The translations under genes and the position numbers were made by a program. Source: Pseudomonadota bacterium (GTDB taxonomy: Bacteria > Pseudomonadota > Alphaproteobacteria > Acetobacterales > Acetobacteraceae). From it: a stretch of 19,775 bases of DNA. Shown one piece after another: positions 7,991 to 16,227 of this stretch. The stretch's first letter is position 1; the number at the start of each line of letters is the position of its first letter. The notes under the pieces are model-generated. The model was not told the DNA's origin. It saw nothing but the letters and a program-made list of their open reading frames with translations, and did no database searches. The stretch spans positions 1 through 19,775 of the forward strand of contig JAKCCP010000203.1 of assembly GCA_021841985.1 (NCBI GenBank), read 5' to 3'.

Positions 7991-9055
7991 ATGGTGCAAG
8001 CCGGGAAAAGCGAGCGCGGCGCCAAAACGGCGCGGAACGACGCGACGGTGACGGCGGAAAAACCCCAAGCCGTCGCCGGCCTCGGCCGCGCCGCGCTGCT
8101 GCGCGCCTATCACGACATGGTGTTGATCCGCCGCTTCGAGGAGCGTGCCGGCCAGCTCTATGGCATGGGGCTGATCGGTGGCTTCTGCCATCTCTATATC
8201 GGCCAGGAAGCCGTGGTCGTCGGGGTGCAGATGGCGCTCCAGGACGGCGATCAGGTGATCACCAGCTACCGCGATCACGGCCACATGCTGGCTGCGGGGA
8301 TGGACCCGCGCGGGGTGATGGCCGAGCTTACCGGAAGGCGCGACGGCTATTCGCACGGCAAGGGCGGTTCCATGCACATGTTCTCGCGCGAGAAGAATTT
8401 CTTCGGCGGCCATGGCATCGTCGGCGCGCAGGTGAGTATCGGCACGGGGCTTGCCTTCGCCAACCGCTATCGCGGCAATGATCGGGTGTCCGTCACCTAT
8501 TTCGGCGAGGGCGCCTCCAGCCAGGGGCAGGTCTATGAGAGCTTCAACATCGCCGCGCTGATGAAACTCCCGGTGCTCTATGTCATCGAGAACAACAAAT
8601 ACGGCATGGGTACCAGCGTCGATCGCTCCAGCGCCTCGCACGATCTTTCGCAGAACGGCGCGCCCTGGGGCATTCCGGGGGCGCAGGTCGATGGCATGGA
8701 TGTCGAGGCCGTGCAGGCAGCGGCGGCGGCGGCGGTGGCGCATTGCCGGGCGGGCCGGGGACCGTATCTGCTGGAGATGAAAACCTATCGCTATCGCGGC
8801 CACTCGATGTCCGACCCGGCAAAATACCGCACCCGCGAGGAGGTGCAAAAAATGCGTACCGAGCGCGACTGCATCGAGCACGCCCGCCAGCATCTCCTGG
8901 CACTCGGTGCGGCCGAGGCCGAACTCAAGGCGATCGAGGAGGCGGTGAAGACGCAAATCCAGGAAGCCGCGGATTTCGCCCAGGCGAGCCCCGAGCCCGA
9001 TCCCGCCGAACTCTGGACCGACGTGCTGGCGAGTGACGTTGTGGCGGGGGCGTGA
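7991..9055 (+). CDS. pdhA: Pyruvate dehydrogenase E1 component, alpha subunit
   Basis: Thiamin-diphosphate enzyme subunit that, with the beta subunit, decarboxylates pyruvate and passes the acetyl group to lipoamide. The ORF gives 354 residues from ATG 7991; an in-frame GTG at 7985 is possible, but GAGGGGG (7974-7980) is better spaced for 7991. Features: an alanine-rich N-terminal extension of about 30 residues, [20 protein letters not shown], the [14 protein letters not shown] segment, [10 protein letters not shown], and the TPP motif beginning [15 protein letters not shown] and ending [10 protein letters not shown]. The first TPP aspartate (GDG) is glutamate here. The phosphorylation-loop-like [11 protein letters not shown] is present. 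It is the first gene of a four-gene operon, and pdhB starts 1 nt after its stop. Confidence 0.95.
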
Positions 9056-9056
9056 G

Positions 9057-9218
9057 ATGGCGACCGAGATTCTGATGCCGGCGCTCTCGCCCACCATGAC
9101 CGAGGGCAAGCTCGCCCGCTGGCTCAAGAAGGAGGGCGATGCGGTCAAGGCGGGCGATGTCATCGCCGAGATCGAGACCGACAAGGCGACGATGGAGGTG
9201 GAGGCGGTCGATGAGGGC
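9057..9218 (+). repeat. Lipoyl-domain coding repeat, copy 1
   Basis: This segment encodes the pdhB lipoyl domain core and aligns without gaps, at an offset of 1362 bp, to 10419-10580 in pdhC. Within it, 9153-9196 is identical over 44 bp to 10515-10558. The synonymous-site identity in that block suggests recent duplication or ongoing gene conversion between the two lipoyl domains. Confidence 0.8.
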
Positions 9219-10406
9219 AAGCTCGCCCGCATCCTCGTCGAGGAAGGCACCGAGGGGGTCGCGGTGAACACCCCGATCGCCGTGCTCGCCGCCGATGGCG
9301 AGGATCTTTCCGTGCCCAAGCCCGCGCCCAAACCCGCTCCGCCGCCAGCCGCGGCAAAACCCGCGCCATCCCCGACGGCAACGCCCGCCACGGCAGCGGC
9401 GGAAAAAGATTGGGGCCCGGTCAAGCCGATCACCGTGCGCGAGGCGCTGCGCGATGCCATGGCCGCCGAAATGCGCGCCGACGGGGATGTCTTTCTGATC
9501 GGCGAGGAGGTCGCGCAGTATCAGGGTGCCTACAAGATCAGCCAGGGCCTGCTCGACGAATTCGGCGAGAAGCGCGTCATCGACACGCCGATCGCCGAAC
9601 ACGGTTTCACCGGGCTCGCGGTCGGCGCGGCGATGGCCGGGTTGAAGCCGATCCTTGAGTTCATGACCTTCAACTTCGCCATGCAGGCGATCGACCACAT
9701 CATCAATTCGGCGGCCAAGACGCGCTACATGTCGGGCGGGCAGATGCACTGCCCGATCGTCTTTCGCGGCCCCAACGGCGCCGCCTCCCGCGTCGCGGCG
9801 CAGCATAGCCAGTGCTATGCGAGCTGGTATGCCCATGTGCCGGGCCTCAAGGTGATCGCGCCGTGGTCCGCGGCCGATGCCAAAGGCCTGCTGCGCGCCG
9901 CCATCCGCGACCCCAATCCGGTGGTCTTCCTCGAAAACGAGATCCTCTACGGCCATAGTTTCGACTGCCCGACGGCGGAGGATTTTGTCCTGCCCATCGG
10001 GCGGGCGAAAATCGAGCGCCGGGGCCGCGACGTCACCATCACGGCGTTTTCCATCACCGTCTCGACCGCGCTCGCCGCGGCCGAGAAACTCGCCGAGCAG
10101 GGGATCGAGGCGGAGGTGATCAATCTCCGCACGCTGCGCCCGCTCGATACCGCGACCATCGTCGAGAGCGTGAAGCGCACCAACCGCCTCGTCACCGTCG
10201 AGGAGGGCTGGCCCTTCGCCGGGATCGGCGCCGAGATCGCGATGCAGGTGATCGAGCACTGCTTCGACTGGCTGGACGCCCCGCCGGCGCGGGTCTGTGG
10301 CGTCGATGTGCCGCTGCCCTATGCCGCCAATCTCGAAAAACTCGCCCTCCCGCAGCCCGATTGGGTGGTCGAGGCGGTGCGCAAAACCACCCAGGGCATG
10401 GGCTGA
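9057..10406 (+). CDS. pdhB: Pyruvate dehydrogenase E1 component, beta subunit with N-terminal lipoyl domain
   Basis: 449 residues. Residues 1-80 are a complete lipoyl domain ([20 protein letters not shown]), with the lipoyl lysine in ETDKATME (Lys43). A proline/alanine-rich linker follows (about 85-118), then the E1-beta transketolase-like domain (about 120-449) with [35 protein letters not shown], and the C-terminal [16 protein letters not shown] segment. A lipoylated E1-beta is a known alphaproteobacterial peculiarity. I chose ATG 9057 because the lipoyl domain begins there and it follows the pdhA stop (TGAG-ATG); the in-frame start at 9033 would add eight unlike residues. The lipoyl region is nearly identical at DNA level to that of pdhC. 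Confidence 0.96.
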
Positions 10407-10418
10407 GGGAGAATTCTC

Positions 10419-10580
10419 ATGGCCACCAACATCCTGATGCCAGCACTTTCGCCGACCATGACCGAGGGCACGCTCGCGCGCTGGCTCAAGAAGGAGGGCG
10501 AGGTCGTCAAGGCCGGCGATGTCATCGCCGAGATCGAGACCGACAAGGCGACGATGGAAGTGGAAGCCGTCGATGAGGGC
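10419..10580 (+). repeat. Lipoyl-domain coding repeat, copy 2
   Basis: Partner of the 9057-9218 repeat. It codes for the E2 lipoyl domain; the 44-bp block 10515-10558 is identical to 9153-9196 in pdhB, including third codon positions. Confidence 0.8.
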
Positions 10581-11699
10581 GTGCTGGGAAAAATCCTGGT
10601 GCCCGACGGGAGCGAGGACGTGAAGGTCAACGCGCCGATCGCGGTGCTGGTGGCCGAGGGGGAAAGCGTCCCCGCCGGCCCCGCCCCGCCAGCCGAGAAA
10701 GCCGCCGCCGCCGCCCCAGCCCCCAGCCCAGCGCCCCCGCCCGCCGCCACCGCGGCCGCGCCGGCCCAGGCGAACGGGCACGCGCCCGCCGGCGAGCGGC
10801 TCTTCATCTCGCCGCTGGCCCGTCGCATGGCGCGCCAGGCCGGGCTCGATCCGGCGACGCTTGTCGGCAGCGGCCCCTCCGGGCGGATCGTCAAGGCTGA
10901 TATCGAGGCGGCGCTGCGCCAGGCGCCACCCGCGGCGCCGCAAGCCGCCGCGCCCGCCACCCCGCCGCCGGCACCCGCGCCACGCGCGGGCGCCATCACC
11001 GCGCCGCACGACCTCGTGCCCCATTCCTCGATGCGCAAGGTGATCGCGCGCCGGCTCGTCGAAGCCAAACAGCAGATCCCGCATTTCTACATCACGCTCG
11101 ACGTCGCGCTCGATGCGCTGCTCGATTTGCGCGCGGCGCTGAATGCCAAATCAGCGAAAGAAGGGCCGGGCGCCTTCAAGCTTTCGGTCAACGATCTGCT
11201 GATCAAGGCGGCGGCGATCGCGCTCCGGCGGGTGCCCAAGGTCAATGCGAGCTTTACCGAGGACGGCATCGCCTTCTATCGCGATGTCGATATCAGCGTC
11301 GCCGTCGCCATTCCCGATGGGCTGATTACCCCGATCATCCGCCATGCCGACGAGAAAGGTCTGGCGGCAATCAGTAACGAGATGAAAACCCTCGCCGCGC
11401 GGGCGCGCGCGGGAAAACTGAAGCCCGAGGAATTCCAGGGCGGCGGCTTCTCGATTTCCAATCTCGGCATGTATGGCGTGCGCGAATTCGCCGCCATCAT
11501 CAACCCGCCACAAAGTGCCATTCTCGCCATCGGCGCCGGCGAGAAGCGCCCGGTGGTGAAGGCAGGCGCGCTCGCCATCGCCACCCTGATGACCTGCACG
11601 CTGAGCGTCGATCACCGCGTCGTCGATGGCGCGCTCGGGGCGGAATGGCTCGCCGCCTTCAAGGCGATCGTCGAAGATCCCCTGAGCCTGATGCTTTAG
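10419..11699 (+). CDS. pdhC: Dihydrolipoamide acetyltransferase (PDH E2)
   Basis: Core-forming E2 of the pyruvate dehydrogenase complex, which transfers the acetyl group from lipoamide to CoA. 426 residues with one lipoyl domain (1-80, Lys43 in ETDKATME), an alanine/proline linker (about 85-125), a peripheral-subunit-binding domain (about 128-166, [20 protein letters not shown] ending [12 protein letters not shown]), a second Ala/Pro linker, and the catalytic domain (about 195-426). The latter ends with [15 protein letters not shown], in which His399 and Asp403 are the catalytic residues. It starts 12 bp after pdhB with GGGAGAA as ribosome site. A complete, normal single-lipoyl E2. Confidence 0.97.
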
Positions 11700-13167: not shown

Positions 13168-13713
13168 CTATCTCGCCAAATGCCAAAGCCCAAGGGCGGC
13201 GGCAAACAGCGGCGCAATGGTGAGAAGATAGGCCGCAAGCGGCGGCAGATCGGGTGCGAGGCGGAGCCCGAGCAGAGCGGCATAGGCCATGGCGCCGCCG
13301 GCCAGAAGGCCCGGCATCATGCGCGGCAGCCAGAGCGCGAGCGCCGCTCGTCCCGGCGAAAAACCCGCCGCCCCGAGCGCCGCCACCGTCTCATCGCCGA
13401 CGGCCTTGAGCGCGGCGGCGGCAAAACCCATCGCGAACGGCCAGGCGAGCAAAACGGCGACGATGACATCGCCTTCCTGATCGGCCAGCATCGCCGCCGC
13501 AACCAGCGACGCCAGCGCCAGCATCCAGGCGCCGCCGCGCAGCCAGGCCTGGCCGCGCCAGACCGCCCAGGCGCCGAGCGCGCCGAGCAGGACGGCGAGG
13601 AGGGTGGCGAGATCGGCGGCGAGCAATGCCGGGCGCAACGCTCCGGGATGGGGAGCGAAGAAAGCCGCGAGCAGCAGCCCCGCCAGCAGCCAGATCGCGA
13701 CCCTGCCCGACAT
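13168..13713 (-). CDS. Short ABC-permease-like membrane protein of the degenerate cassette
   Basis: 181 residues with five to six hydrophobic helices. Residues about 105-140 (containing GFSPGRAALALWLPRMMPGL) align with the EAA coupling loop of binding-protein-dependent permeases of the PotB/PotC type (consensus G-A-S-P-W...LP..RPGL). The glutamate-alanine-alanine part itself is not kept; the position of the Glu appears to be alanine. Normal PotB/PotC proteins are about 260-290 residues; this one keeps TM2-TM6 with shortened loops. It starts 9 bp after the substrate-binding protein gene, so it is the third gene of the cassette, and no second permease follows. An unrelated membrane protein is the alternative, but position and the loop argue for a reduced permease. 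Confidence 0.65.
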   Translation of the reverse strand: MSGRVAIWLLAGLLLAAFFAPHPGALRPALLAADLATLLAVLLGALGAWAVWRGQAWLRGGAWMLALASLVAAAMLADQEGDVIVAVLLAWPFAMGFAAAALKAVGDETVAALGAAGFSPGRAALALWLPRMMPGLLAGGAMAYAALLGLRLAPDLPPLAAYLLTIAPLFAAALGLWHLAR

Positions 13714-13722
13714 TCCGAGGCG

Positions 13723-14787
13723 CTAATGCTGCGCGAGCCAGGCGTCGAAGCGCTGGCGGAGGGCCGCTTCGTTCTCTTCCCAGAACGCCTCGTCGAAGGG
13801 CAGCGCGTCCTTGAGGTTGCCGGGGCTGGAGGGCGAGAGCGCGCGCAGCGGCGGCGGCAGCAGCGCGCTCGCGCCCTTGGCGAGCGGGCCGAAGGCGAAA
13901 TTGGTCATGAGCCGCGCCTCAAGCGCGGGGTCGCCGATGAAGGCGAGGAATTTCCGCGCCGGATCGAGCAGCGGCGTGCCGGCGATGAGGGCGAAGCTTT
14001 TGACGCGATAGAGGCTGCCGTTCCATTGCATGCCGAAATGATGTGTGCCGTCGCGGTCGGCGGCGACGATTTCCTCGCTCGGCGCCATCGTCATCAGTAC
14101 CTTGCCCTCGCCGAGTTGGCGCGCCGCCTCGTCGTCTTTTTCCCACCACACGAGATAGGGCCGCAGTTGATCGAGCTTGCGAAAGGCGCGCTTGAGACCT
14201 TCGGATGTGCGCAGCGTCGCATAGACATCGCCGGGGGCGACGCCATCGGCAAGGAGCGCGAATTCGAGCGTCATACGCGGATCACGCCGCAAGCCGCGTT
14301 TGCCGGGATATTTCGCGACGTCCCAGAAATCCGCCCAGCTCGGCGCGCCTTGGATTTTATCGTTATCCCAGCTCAGAACCATGGTTTTCAGAAAGGCCCC
14401 GACCCCGCACTCGCTCACCGCCTCGGGCAGATAGCGCTCGCGCCCGCCGATCGCTGTCCAGTCGAGTTTTTGCAACAGGCCGCGCGCGCAGCCCTCGCGC
14501 AATACCGGTGCCGCGAGCAAAACGATGTCCCAGGGGGTATGCGCGCCGGCGGCGAGCGTGATCGCCTCGATGCTCCCATCGAATGGCGCCTCGACCATCG
14601 CGATGCCGCTCTGCTGGGCAAAGGCCGCGACAAAATTTTTTGCCAGTTCCGCGACCAGCGGCTCATCCGGTGCGGCGAGGGTGAGATCGCGCGCGCCGGC
14701 CGGGGTCACGACAGCGCTGAGCAGGACAAAAAAAACCAGCACGTCACGGCTGAGCGCGGCAACACGCGCGGGCCACGCCCCGCTCAC
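13723..14787 (-). CDS. Spermidine/putrescine-type periplasmic substrate-binding protein
   Basis: Extracellular solute-binding protein family 1, PotD/PotF-like. From GTG 14787 it is 354 residues, with a signal peptide (hydrophobic DVLVFFVLLSAVV, likely cleavage after TPAGA). The mature protein starts RDLTLAAPDEPLVAELAKNF. Recognisable family segments: WDIVLLAAP, FLKTMVLSWDNDKIQ, SWADFWDVAKYPGKRGLRRD, LRPYLVWWEKDDEAARQL, and RVKSFALIAGTPLLDPARKF. I chose GTG 14787 because it overlaps the upstream TGA as GTGA, typical of coupling, and gives a standard signal peptide; ATG 14838 is possible but adds a cysteine-rich stretch. The ligand pocket segment usually reading TSAYNGRI is TMAPSEEI here, so the ligand may differ. 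It looks intact, unlike its ATPase partner. Confidence 0.8.
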   Translation of the reverse strand: MSGAWPARVAALSRDVLVFFVLLSAVVTPAGARDLTLAAPDEPLVAELAKNFVAAFAQQSGIAMVEAPFDGSIEAITLAAGAHTPWDIVLLAAPVLREGCARGLLQKLDWTAIGGRERYLPEAVSECGVGAFLKTMVLSWDNDKIQGAPSWADFWDVAKYPGKRGLRRDPRMTLEFALLADGVAPGDVYATLRTSEGLKRAFRKLDQLRPYLVWWEKDDEAARQLGEGKVLMTMAPSEEIVAADRDGTHHFGMQWNGSLYRVKSFALIAGTPLLDPARKFLAFIGDPALEARLMTNFAFGPLAKGASALLPPPLRALSPSSPGNLKDALPFDEAFWEENEAALRQRFDAWLAQH

Positions 14788-15890
14788 GTCGAGTCCCGCG
14801 GGGTTGCGGCAAAAATGCGCGCATGCGCGGCACTCCACGCGACCGACATCTCAAGCCCTGGTTGCAAACCTCGCAGATTGGCGCTAGCAGGGCGCGTAAT
14901 GATGATTTCTCCACCCGCGCCGAGAGAAACGATAAGCCGGGTTAACGCACCAAGCGGCATGACCTTGCGCAGCACCGCGGAAATCGCTCCTTCCCCCAAT
15001 TCCTCGGCGGCGATCGCCGCCACCGCGATCCGCTCCGGCCGGATCATCAAGCGCGAGCGTTGCCCGATCGCGATCCGCTCGGCAAGAGAGCCCGCGACGC
15101 GCGCGCCATTATCGAGGCGGAGGCGGGCGATATCATTCTCGTCTTCCTCCAGGACGCCATCGAGAATATTGGCCTCGCCCATCGCGATCGCGGCGGTGAG
15201 GCTCGCGGGCGCGTCATAGAGGCTTTGTGGCGTGCCGTCCTGAACGATGCGGCCCTCGTGCAGCACCAGGGCGCGATCGGCGAGCGCGAAAACCGCGGCC
15301 GGCGTGCGCGCGGCGAGCAGCGTCGTCACCCCTGGCGCGGCGGGGCCGGCGCGGAGCAGGGTTGCCAGCATGCGGCGTTCGGGCTCGGCGAAGCCGTCAT
15401 CCGGCTCCTCCAGCAACAGCAGCGCCGGCGAGGCGATCAGGGCGCGCGCGAGGGCGGCGCGATAGCGCTCGGCGGGTGAAAGTTCCCCCGGTCGGCGCGC
15501 GGCGCACTCGGCCAGCCCAACCATCGCCAGCATCGCGGCGACCCGCCCTCGCCGCACCTTGCCGGCGATCCCACGCGCGGCGAGCGGGGCGGCGACATTG
15601 CCGGCGATATCGCGAAAGCCGATCAGCCCGGCATTGGCCGGCACGTAGCCGAAGCCCCGCCGATGCGCTGGGGTGGCCTGGAGCCGCCGGCCGTTGATCA
15701 CGATCTCGCCCGATCCCGGGCGGCGCAATCCGGCGATCATGCGCAGCACGCCGCGCGCCGCCGCACCATAGCGATCGAGCAGGGCGAGGCTTTCACCCCG
15801 CGCCATCATCAGGGCGGCATCCTCGCCGGCGGCCAGGTCGATGCCGCGCACGGCAAGAAAAGCTGGCTCGGGGAGATCGCTCGATTGCAT
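14784..15890 (-). CDS. PotA-like ABC ATPase homologue lacking all catalytic motifs (pseudo-ATPase)
   Basis: 368 residues aligning end to end with PotA/CysA-type ATPases. The N-terminal domain (about 10-240) keeps framework blocks VLRMIAGLRRPGSGEI, ALARALIASPALLLL, ADRALVLHEGRIVQDGTP, and a C-terminal TOBE-like domain (about 240-365, LMIRPERIAV). The functional motifs are gone. Walker A is DRYGAAARG at 39-47 (lysine replaced by alanine). The Q-loop is VPANAGLIG. The signature is LSPAE at 138-142. Walker B is LLLLEE. The H-loop histidine position is arginine (AARTPAA, 192-198). No stop or frameshift is present. The start is ATG 15890, with no obvious ribosome site; upstream in-frame ATGs at 15938 and 15974 exist, but the latter overlaps the divergent gene. 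First gene of the three-gene cassette. Confidence 0.8.
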   Translation of the reverse strand: MQSSDLPEPAFLAVRGIDLAAGEDAALMMARGESLALLDRYGAAARGVLRMIAGLRRPGSGEIVINGRRLQATPAHRRGFGYVPANAGLIGFRDIAGNVAAPLAARGIAGKVRRGRVAAMLAMVGLAECAARRPGELSPAERYRAALARALIASPALLLLEEPDDGFAEPERRMLATLLRAGPAAPGVTTLLAARTPAAVFALADRALVLHEGRIVQDGTPQSLYDAPASLTAAIAMGEANILDGVLEEDENDIARLRLDNGARVAGSLAERIAIGQRSRLMIRPERIAVAAIAAEELGEGAISAVLRKVMPLGALTRLIVSLGAGGEIIITRPASANLRGLQPGLEMSVAWSAAHARIFAATPRDST

Positions 15891-15972: not shown

Positions 15973-16227
15973 ATGAGCAACGCCAAGCCCGCCGAGGATC
16001 CGGCCGCCGAGATCGCCCGCCTCACCGCCGAACTCGAGACGCTGCGCGGTCGGGCCGGAGCTGCCCTGGGACGCGCCGGCAAGGAAGCCGGAAAGCTGGC
16101 CGAGGACGCCCGTGATCTGGCGCGCCATGAGACCGAGGCGCTGGCGCGGCAGGTGCAGGAACGGCCGCTGCTCGCGCTCGCCATCGCGGGTGCTGTGGGC
16201 TTCCTGATCGGGCGGCTGGCACGCTAG
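15973..16227 (+). CDS. DUF883 family (ElaB/YqjD-like) membrane-anchored protein
   Basis: 84 residues. The first 60 are strongly helical, charged and heptad-like (AAEIARLTAELETLRGRAGA), ending in a single C-terminal hydrophobic anchor ERPLLALAIAGAVGFLIGRL with the glycine pattern typical of DUF883. In E. coli the relatives ElaB, YgaM and YqjD are tail-anchored inner-membrane proteins that bind ribosomes in stationary phase; the same role here is inference. The ribosome site AAAGGA lies about 9 nt upstream. The next gene starts 4 bp after its stop, mirroring the yqjD-yqjE arrangement. Confidence 0.85.
   Translation: MSNAKPAEDPAAEIARLTAELETLRGRAGAALGRAGKEAGKLAEDARDLARHETEALARQVQERPLLALAIAGAVGFLIGRLAR

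Follow-up and report, generated by a model that had tools for sequence, protein, structure and literature searches.

What defines an ATP-binding cassette (ABC) importer is its ATP motor. The same architecture is used otherwise in SUR1 and FtsEX, non-transport ABC proteins that bind and in part hydrolyse ATP. In one-degenerate-site ABC proteins, such as RbsA and NupO of B. subtilis (PMC11466899, excerpt) and certain exporters (PMC7756269, excerpt), the Walker A lysine and LSGGQ are lost at one site, one competent half is kept and transport continues. In E. coli, MalK anchors MalT when no substrate is transported (PMC10427625, excerpt), and the MalK-type TOBE domain is described as a hub for regulatory proteins in the part of PMC11466899 on which we draw. 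Here, we describe a three-gene importer cassette in a 19,775-nucleotide stretch from a member of the Acetobacteraceae (contig JAKCCP010000203.1, assembly GCA_021841985.1; the whole stretch is called the window), composed of a PotA-like nucleotide-binding domain (NBD) subunit, a substrate-binding protein (SBP) homologue and a short permease. Its former ATPase has lost the ATP site, and the part under strongest constraint is now the C-terminal TOBE domain, no longer the ABC motor.

The cassette resembles importers of the PotABCD, Atu4243 and Pf622 type in the homology of all three subunits, in the order NBD, SBP, permease and in an NBD fold with TOBE, but differs in having neither an ATP site nor a second permease, in the shortness of its one permease and in changed ligand residues (by the site listed in an excerpt of PMC12999171). 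Of what makes a functional type I importer (PotABCD, MalFGK2), it has the MalK-type fold with TOBE and the EAA loop, and lacks the motor motifs and the two full-length permeases. Like the one-degenerate-site proteins in the excerpts above it has lost both the Walker A lysine and LSGGQ; unlike them, it encodes no competent half. Whereas SUR1 and FtsEX bind ATP, the window NBD is without an ATP site altogether.

Three genes on the minus strand, joined by a GTGA overlap and a 9-bp gap, had been read here by the original prediction, made from the letters of the window. The coordinates bear this out: NBD (15890-14784), SBP (14787-13723) and permease (13713-13168), with the GTG start of the SBP gene overlapping the NBD stop and 9 bases between SBP and permease. 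The cassette consists of the following features.

14784..15890, minus strand: PotA-like subunit (NBD), by Pfam ABC_tran and TOBE_2, motif alignment and AlphaFold model
13723..14787, minus strand: SBP homologue of the GABA (gamma-aminobutyric acid)/opine/polyamine type, 354 aa from the overlapping GTG, Pfam SBP_bac_8
13168..13713, minus strand: short permease remnant, 181 aa, EAA-type coupling loop kept at about residues 107-130
14784..14787, minus strand: GTGA stop-start overlap of the NBD and SBP genes, read in the sequence

The NBD was said to be full-length including TOBE, with its Walker A lysine, Q-loop glutamine, LSGGQ, Walker B aspartate and H-loop histidine all replaced. Pfam confirms the former, ABC_tran and TOBE_2 together covering the protein (ABC domain about residues 1-235, TOBE about 236-368), and alignment to canonical relatives the latter: Walker A reads DRYGAAARG against the canonical GPSGSGKTT, the Q-loop PANAGLI against FQSYALF, the signature LSPAE against LSGGQ, the Walker B region LLLLEEPDDGFA against LVLLDEPLGALD and the H-loop AART against VTHD. 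One correction is needed, in that the Walker B aspartate has become glutamate and the catalytic-glutamate position, still Glu, is the only one of six motor positions kept. All motor residues are present in 23/23 canonical copies. Among the 67 readable motor-dead copies (defined partly by an absent Walker A lysine; L068, L144 and L206, with unreadable alignments, are left out), the glutamine is kept in one, a near-intact signature and the histidine in none, the Walker B aspartate in 41 and the catalytic glutamate in 7, which are the seven of the window's genus. In 19 canonical sequences the blocks of Walker A, the Q-loop, the signature and Walker B have identities of 0.80-0.86; in 23 selected dead sequences these are down to 0.39-0.50, whereas the TOBE blocks hold at 0.45-0.55 (canonical 0.32-0.56). 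New residues have become fixed across clades, for example R86, D87, P88 and D50 at 83-96% of these 23 representatives. An AlphaFold model of the window NBD (predicted local distance difference test, pLDDT, 87.5) has E. coli PotA (8zx1_A) as its best PDB match in Foldseek, with a template-modelling (TM) score of 0.80; as modelled, the fold is intact while the ATP site is lost.

Selection on these genes was assessed by the ratio of nonsynonymous to synonymous substitution (dN/dS; Nei-Gojobori, within-genus pairs, scorable at dS 0.02-1.8), a method that is crude in GC-rich genes and applied to pairs that are not independent. Of 159 pairs of dead copies from seven genera, 149 could be scored; in these, dN/dS for the whole NBD lay between 0.07 and 0.45 (maximum 0.448), with medians of 0.147 (g131), 0.199 (g61), 0.265 (g43), 0.162 (g31), 0.175 (g121), 0.358 (g57) and 0.285 (g1); SBP medians were 0.08-0.45. 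Scored by domain, over all members of 11 groups and in matched pairs, the summed dN/dS for ABC/TOBE was 0.165/0.071 in g131 (3 pairs), 0.228/0.150 in g61 (45), 0.305/0.180 in g43 (65), 0.202/0.144 in g31 (5), 0.200/0.122 in g121 (3), 0.469/0.260 in g57 (3) and 0.357/0.202 in g1 (15), all dead, against 0.115/0.236 in g46 (3 pairs), 0.187/0.336 in g141 (5), 0.198/0.294 in g34 (3) and 0.063/0.118 in g124 (1), all canonical. The ABC domain thus exceeds TOBE in 7/7 dead genera versus 0/4 canonical groups (exact probability 1/330 with genera as units, calculated by hand), in 127/139 dead versus 0/12 canonical pairs, and by dN alone, which escapes saturation, in 149/158 versus 0/13. Canonical paralogs from g43 and g61 themselves have ABC below TOBE in 14/14 non-identical pairs (at least 60% identity; 16 usable of 28 loci). 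In these proteins, then, it is the TOBE domain and no longer the motor that is most strongly held.

The dead state is widespread. The nearest genome, the metagenome-assembled G001 (Proteobacteria bacterium FK3.bin97), has 67% of sampled words in common with the window and an identical NBD (100%); across the cassette (2,723 bases) there are 13 differences between them, of which three, all synonymous, lie in the permease, and the NBD has none. A contig scan with the window NBD returned one true copy, that of G001, and two ordinary ABC proteins. A dead NBD stands beside the SBP gene in 6/6 sampled genomes of the window's genus (G001-G006) and in 61/82 loci of what we label the Neoasaia-side clade, the clade containing G031 Neoasaia chiangmaiensis NBRC 101099, G052 Candidatus Kirkpatrickella diaphorinae and G062 Acetobacteraceae bacterium KSS8; one related protein is named Acidiphilium sp. 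The check named beforehand by the original prediction, whether the replaced motifs are common to relatives and whether dN/dS is well below 1, came out against decay on both counts: the remaining five genomes sampled from the genus have the same losses, as do many other genera, and dN/dS is low. SBP matches at 1e-40 occur in 285/395 family genomes and 75/96 genera, full systems and paralogs included. The 148 SBP loci that we read, hand-picked from SBP matches with several per genus so that the counts are not population frequencies (the near-identical window and L090 both counted), comprise 62 with a dead NBD and short permease, 42 with an SBP without NBD or permease, 14 with a canonical NBD and two long permeases, eight with a dead NBD without detected permease (of which L068 and L144 are unreadable and L097 has a permease overlapping the SBP end), eight with a canonical NBD without permease, four with two long permeases without an adjacent NBD, and 10 others.

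On the SBP tree, from which the partial SBPs of L059, L075 and L083 were left out, dead copies are found at two distinct positions: in the window's genus and, apart from it, in the Neoasaia-side clade. Four changes were counted, at least two of them forced by well-supported branches, in a count made without L068, L144 (unreadable NBD alignments) and L099 (contig end); some placements are unsure on the long branches L087-L089, L080, L085 and L086. NBDs with partly lost motifs and the lysine kept occur in L049, L056, L062, L066, L069 and L145, and as these lineages are scattered on the tree, motor decay began repeatedly.

The permease was predicted to be reduced, and it is: it is single, has 181 aa and aligns to positions 183-322 of a 385-position full-length permease profile (E 2e-10, single comparison), making it a remnant that keeps the EAA loop. 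There is no other permease in the window cassette. Pfam gave no match to the short protein, and NCBIfam a weak one to ModB (E 5.7e-6, far below that model's cut-off). Aligned to relatives, the EAA coupling loop is present in the window permease and is the most conserved part of the short permeases. The AlphaFold model is weak (pLDDT 58), with the EAA loop helix as its best-confidence part, and we draw no topology from it.

The binding protein, which had been called normal-looking, is not so at its ligand site. It carries Pfam SBP_bac_8, a signal-like N terminus and a conserved cysteine pair, C117/C144 (371-aa numbering), each position of which is kept in 59/62 dead loci. A profile of the window and 25 relatives matched 4i1d in the PDB (E 4e-48) and also Pf622 (9d57, 6dgv), Atu4243 (4eq7), opine SBPs and others, which places it by sequence in the GABA/opine/polyamine-type fold family. 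The GABA site of the Pf622 sensor, as given in an excerpt of PMC12999171, comprises W9, T13, F100, Y102, W202, R205, D228 and Y264; we mapped it through the profile alignment to PDB relatives, NocT having been rejected as reference because it belongs to another SBP cluster. By this partial source, the window protein has E and K at the R205 and D228 positions, D228 is kept in 0/62 and R205 in 7/62 loci with a dead NBD and short permease, and both are kept in 18/18 loci with two long permeases, 14/14 with a canonical NBD and 4/4 without an adjacent one. In the eight canonical-NBD loci without permease, R205 is kept in two and D228 in one, and the sole locus that has both, L065, is truncated at a contig end. 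These patterns indicate that ligand site and permease were lost together. In some genera (g11, g34, g56, g124) both losses came before that of the ATPase motifs; genus g4 has the reverse order, with a degenerate NBD in L069 beside long permeases and kept ligand residues. NBDs with perfect motifs beside an SBP without ligand residues and no adjoining permease were seen in L054, L058, L073, L125, L126 (cut by a contig end), L142 and L143.

We regard it as an evenly balanced proposition that a GABA/opine/polyamine-type importer, retired in ancestors of these Acetobacteraceae without its subunits being discarded, has been kept as an ATP-independent scaffold whose former motor is valued for its TOBE platform. 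In such a putative complex, the dead NBD would rest on the coupling loop, always idling and independent of ATP, a platform role that suits a protein with the fold preserved, the ATP site emptied and the TOBE domain favoured. Much as idle MalK does with MalT, the TOBE domain would keep a partner from the cytoplasm at the membrane, and the SBP homologue would have a binding or structural role in the periplasm, its small ligand being either new or absent. It is the shift of constraint alone that points to MalK-like, TOBE-dependent partner binding, which we infer by analogy: both cases would involve a TOBE-bearing MalK-type subunit of a non-transporting importer, but by the cited excerpt of PMC10427625 MalK is a working ATPase whose anchoring is relieved by transport, whereas here the motor is dead and the partner putative. 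Of the two roles suggested by the original prediction, a non-hydrolysing, non-transporting complex is supported, since all motor motifs, the pair of long permeases and the ligand site of the SBP are gone, and the membrane scaffold is compatible with our data; a periplasmic sensor or receptor for the original ligand is unlikely, the equivalents of Pf622 R205 and D228 (same excerpt) having been lost together with the permease. Possible, if doubtful, is the bolder form of a 'pseudo-importer', in which the whole importer would have been converted, one subunit after another, to a conserved transmembrane scaffold or signalling bridge independent of ATP, with a ligandless SBP outside, a motor-dead TOBE platform inside and a minimal permease joining them, motor loss being complete in two separate clades.

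Several observations weigh against a retained complex. Five of the six sampled genomes of the window's genus are without a detectable short permease, which is found only in the window and G001: no homologue, linked or unlinked, reached E 0.001 in the five (best E 0.005), and an unlinked copy was rejected on that scan. A three-part membrane complex is therefore not general, nor needed in all relatives, and in most of the genus the NBD-TOBE protein would act without the permease. The short permease is also less constrained (median dN/dS 0.24-0.51, maximum 0.77), the SBP is kept without NBD and permease in 21/82 Neoasaia-side loci, implying a role of its own, and genus g31 shows the shift of constraint in only 2/5 scorable pairs, though its sum does. 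It may accordingly be asked whether there is any complex at all: the NBD-TOBE protein could be at work in the cytosol, as regulator or binding protein, and the SBP separately in the periplasm, their operon shared only by descent and the short permease a dispensable remnant. We consider this somewhat unlikely. The solitary SBPs, which in other genera stand beside an Mla operon, the NBDs kept without permease and the permease's rank as fastest evolving part all speak for it; against it, the EAA coupling loop is what the short permeases conserve best, and the NBD and permease genes lie on either side of the SBP gene, yet each of the 82 Neoasaia-side loci has either both (61) or neither (21) (L206 and L049 left out, L097 placed by hand among permease loci). 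This co-retention corresponds to only about three changes on the tree and two independent pairs (sign test p 0.5), which lessens its force for the scaffold.

Slow decay, with the cassette a relic on its way out and held only by constraint that is weak or incidental, from operon structure or gene overlap for instance, is improbable. Losses are stepwise across lineages and partial in several, NBD and permease have been completely lost repeatedly, and one NBD is frame-broken (L068, two frames). Yet all 149 scored pairs stay below 0.45, the new NBD residues are fixed across clades and TOBE is more constrained than the ABC domain. Neither dN/dS near 1 nor a broken frame, the marks of a pseudogene, was found for the window cassette, whose frames are open and under purifying selection, and strain-specific pseudogenisation was rejected since relatives share the dead state and dN/dS is low; the earlier claim of selection rather than decay is supported. 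That the cassette is still a transporter, its short permease driven by an ATPase encoded elsewhere and the local NBD a regulatory dummy, is very improbable, for although canonical paralogs are present in G001 and NBD sharing may occur in genus g4, where 3/5 examined loci (L212-L214) have two long permeases and the ligand residues of the PMC12999171 excerpt without an adjacent NBD, the reduced cassettes have lost that ligand site, the permease keeps only part of the fold and any dimer of the dead NBD with another ATPase would lack a complete composite site, LSGGQ and Walker A both being lost.

Loci of genus g4 (L069, L212-L215) differ in their NBD, which is canonical, degenerate or missing from the neighbourhood, and have long permeases and an intact SBP site; another ATPase may serve such loci. 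In part of the Neoasaia-side clade (L077, L078, L079, L081, L084, L085, L091, L096, L130, L184, L188, L190), a His-rich stretch just after the signal-like segment of the SBP holds up to 8 His in 50 residues, against at most one in canonical two-permease loci, which hints at metal binding; the stretch is absent in the window and was rejected as a general SBP feature. Where the permease is absent in the window's genus, the gene after SBP is, by reading, DsbB-like in four loci (L044, L045, L046, L059), the SBP's two cysteines being conserved, and thioesterase-like in one (the G005 pieces lie on separate contigs). In L048, L050, L051, L053, L055, L056, L057 and L058 the SBP gene is directly followed by one gene with both STAS-like and MlaE-like sequence, again by reading, mostly also with MlaF-like genes, and the NBD is gone in most. 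Upstream of the window cassette lies its conserved neighbour.

15973..16227, plus strand: divergent gene, presumably YqjD/ElaB-like, conserved locus neighbour by tblastn in family loci

This gene is found upstream of 54/62 loci with dead NBD and short permease and of 8/8 dead-NBD loci without detected permease; the other flank is a convergent gene that we take to be lpd. Further off, at 9033-11699 on the plus strand, a PdhB-like gene and the next pyruvate dehydrogenase (PDH) gene have almost the same lipoyl-type domain at their starts (79% over 84 residues by tblastn in L090), which is an ordinary arrangement.

Our search of the open-licence literature, subscription papers being outside its scope, turned up, among the papers listed, none that deals with this locus or with a conserved importer whose motor is wholly dead. 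Annotation calls for caution, as these NBDs are named spermidine/putrescine transport ATPases or TOBE-domain proteins and the short permease a hypothetical protein. Where a family has lost motor, pore and ligand site and yet keeps the parts, nature supplies a gradient, with full systems at one end, dead ones at the other and partial losses in between, and along it the non-transport roles of ABC subunits, above all of TOBE, can be studied without confounding transport.

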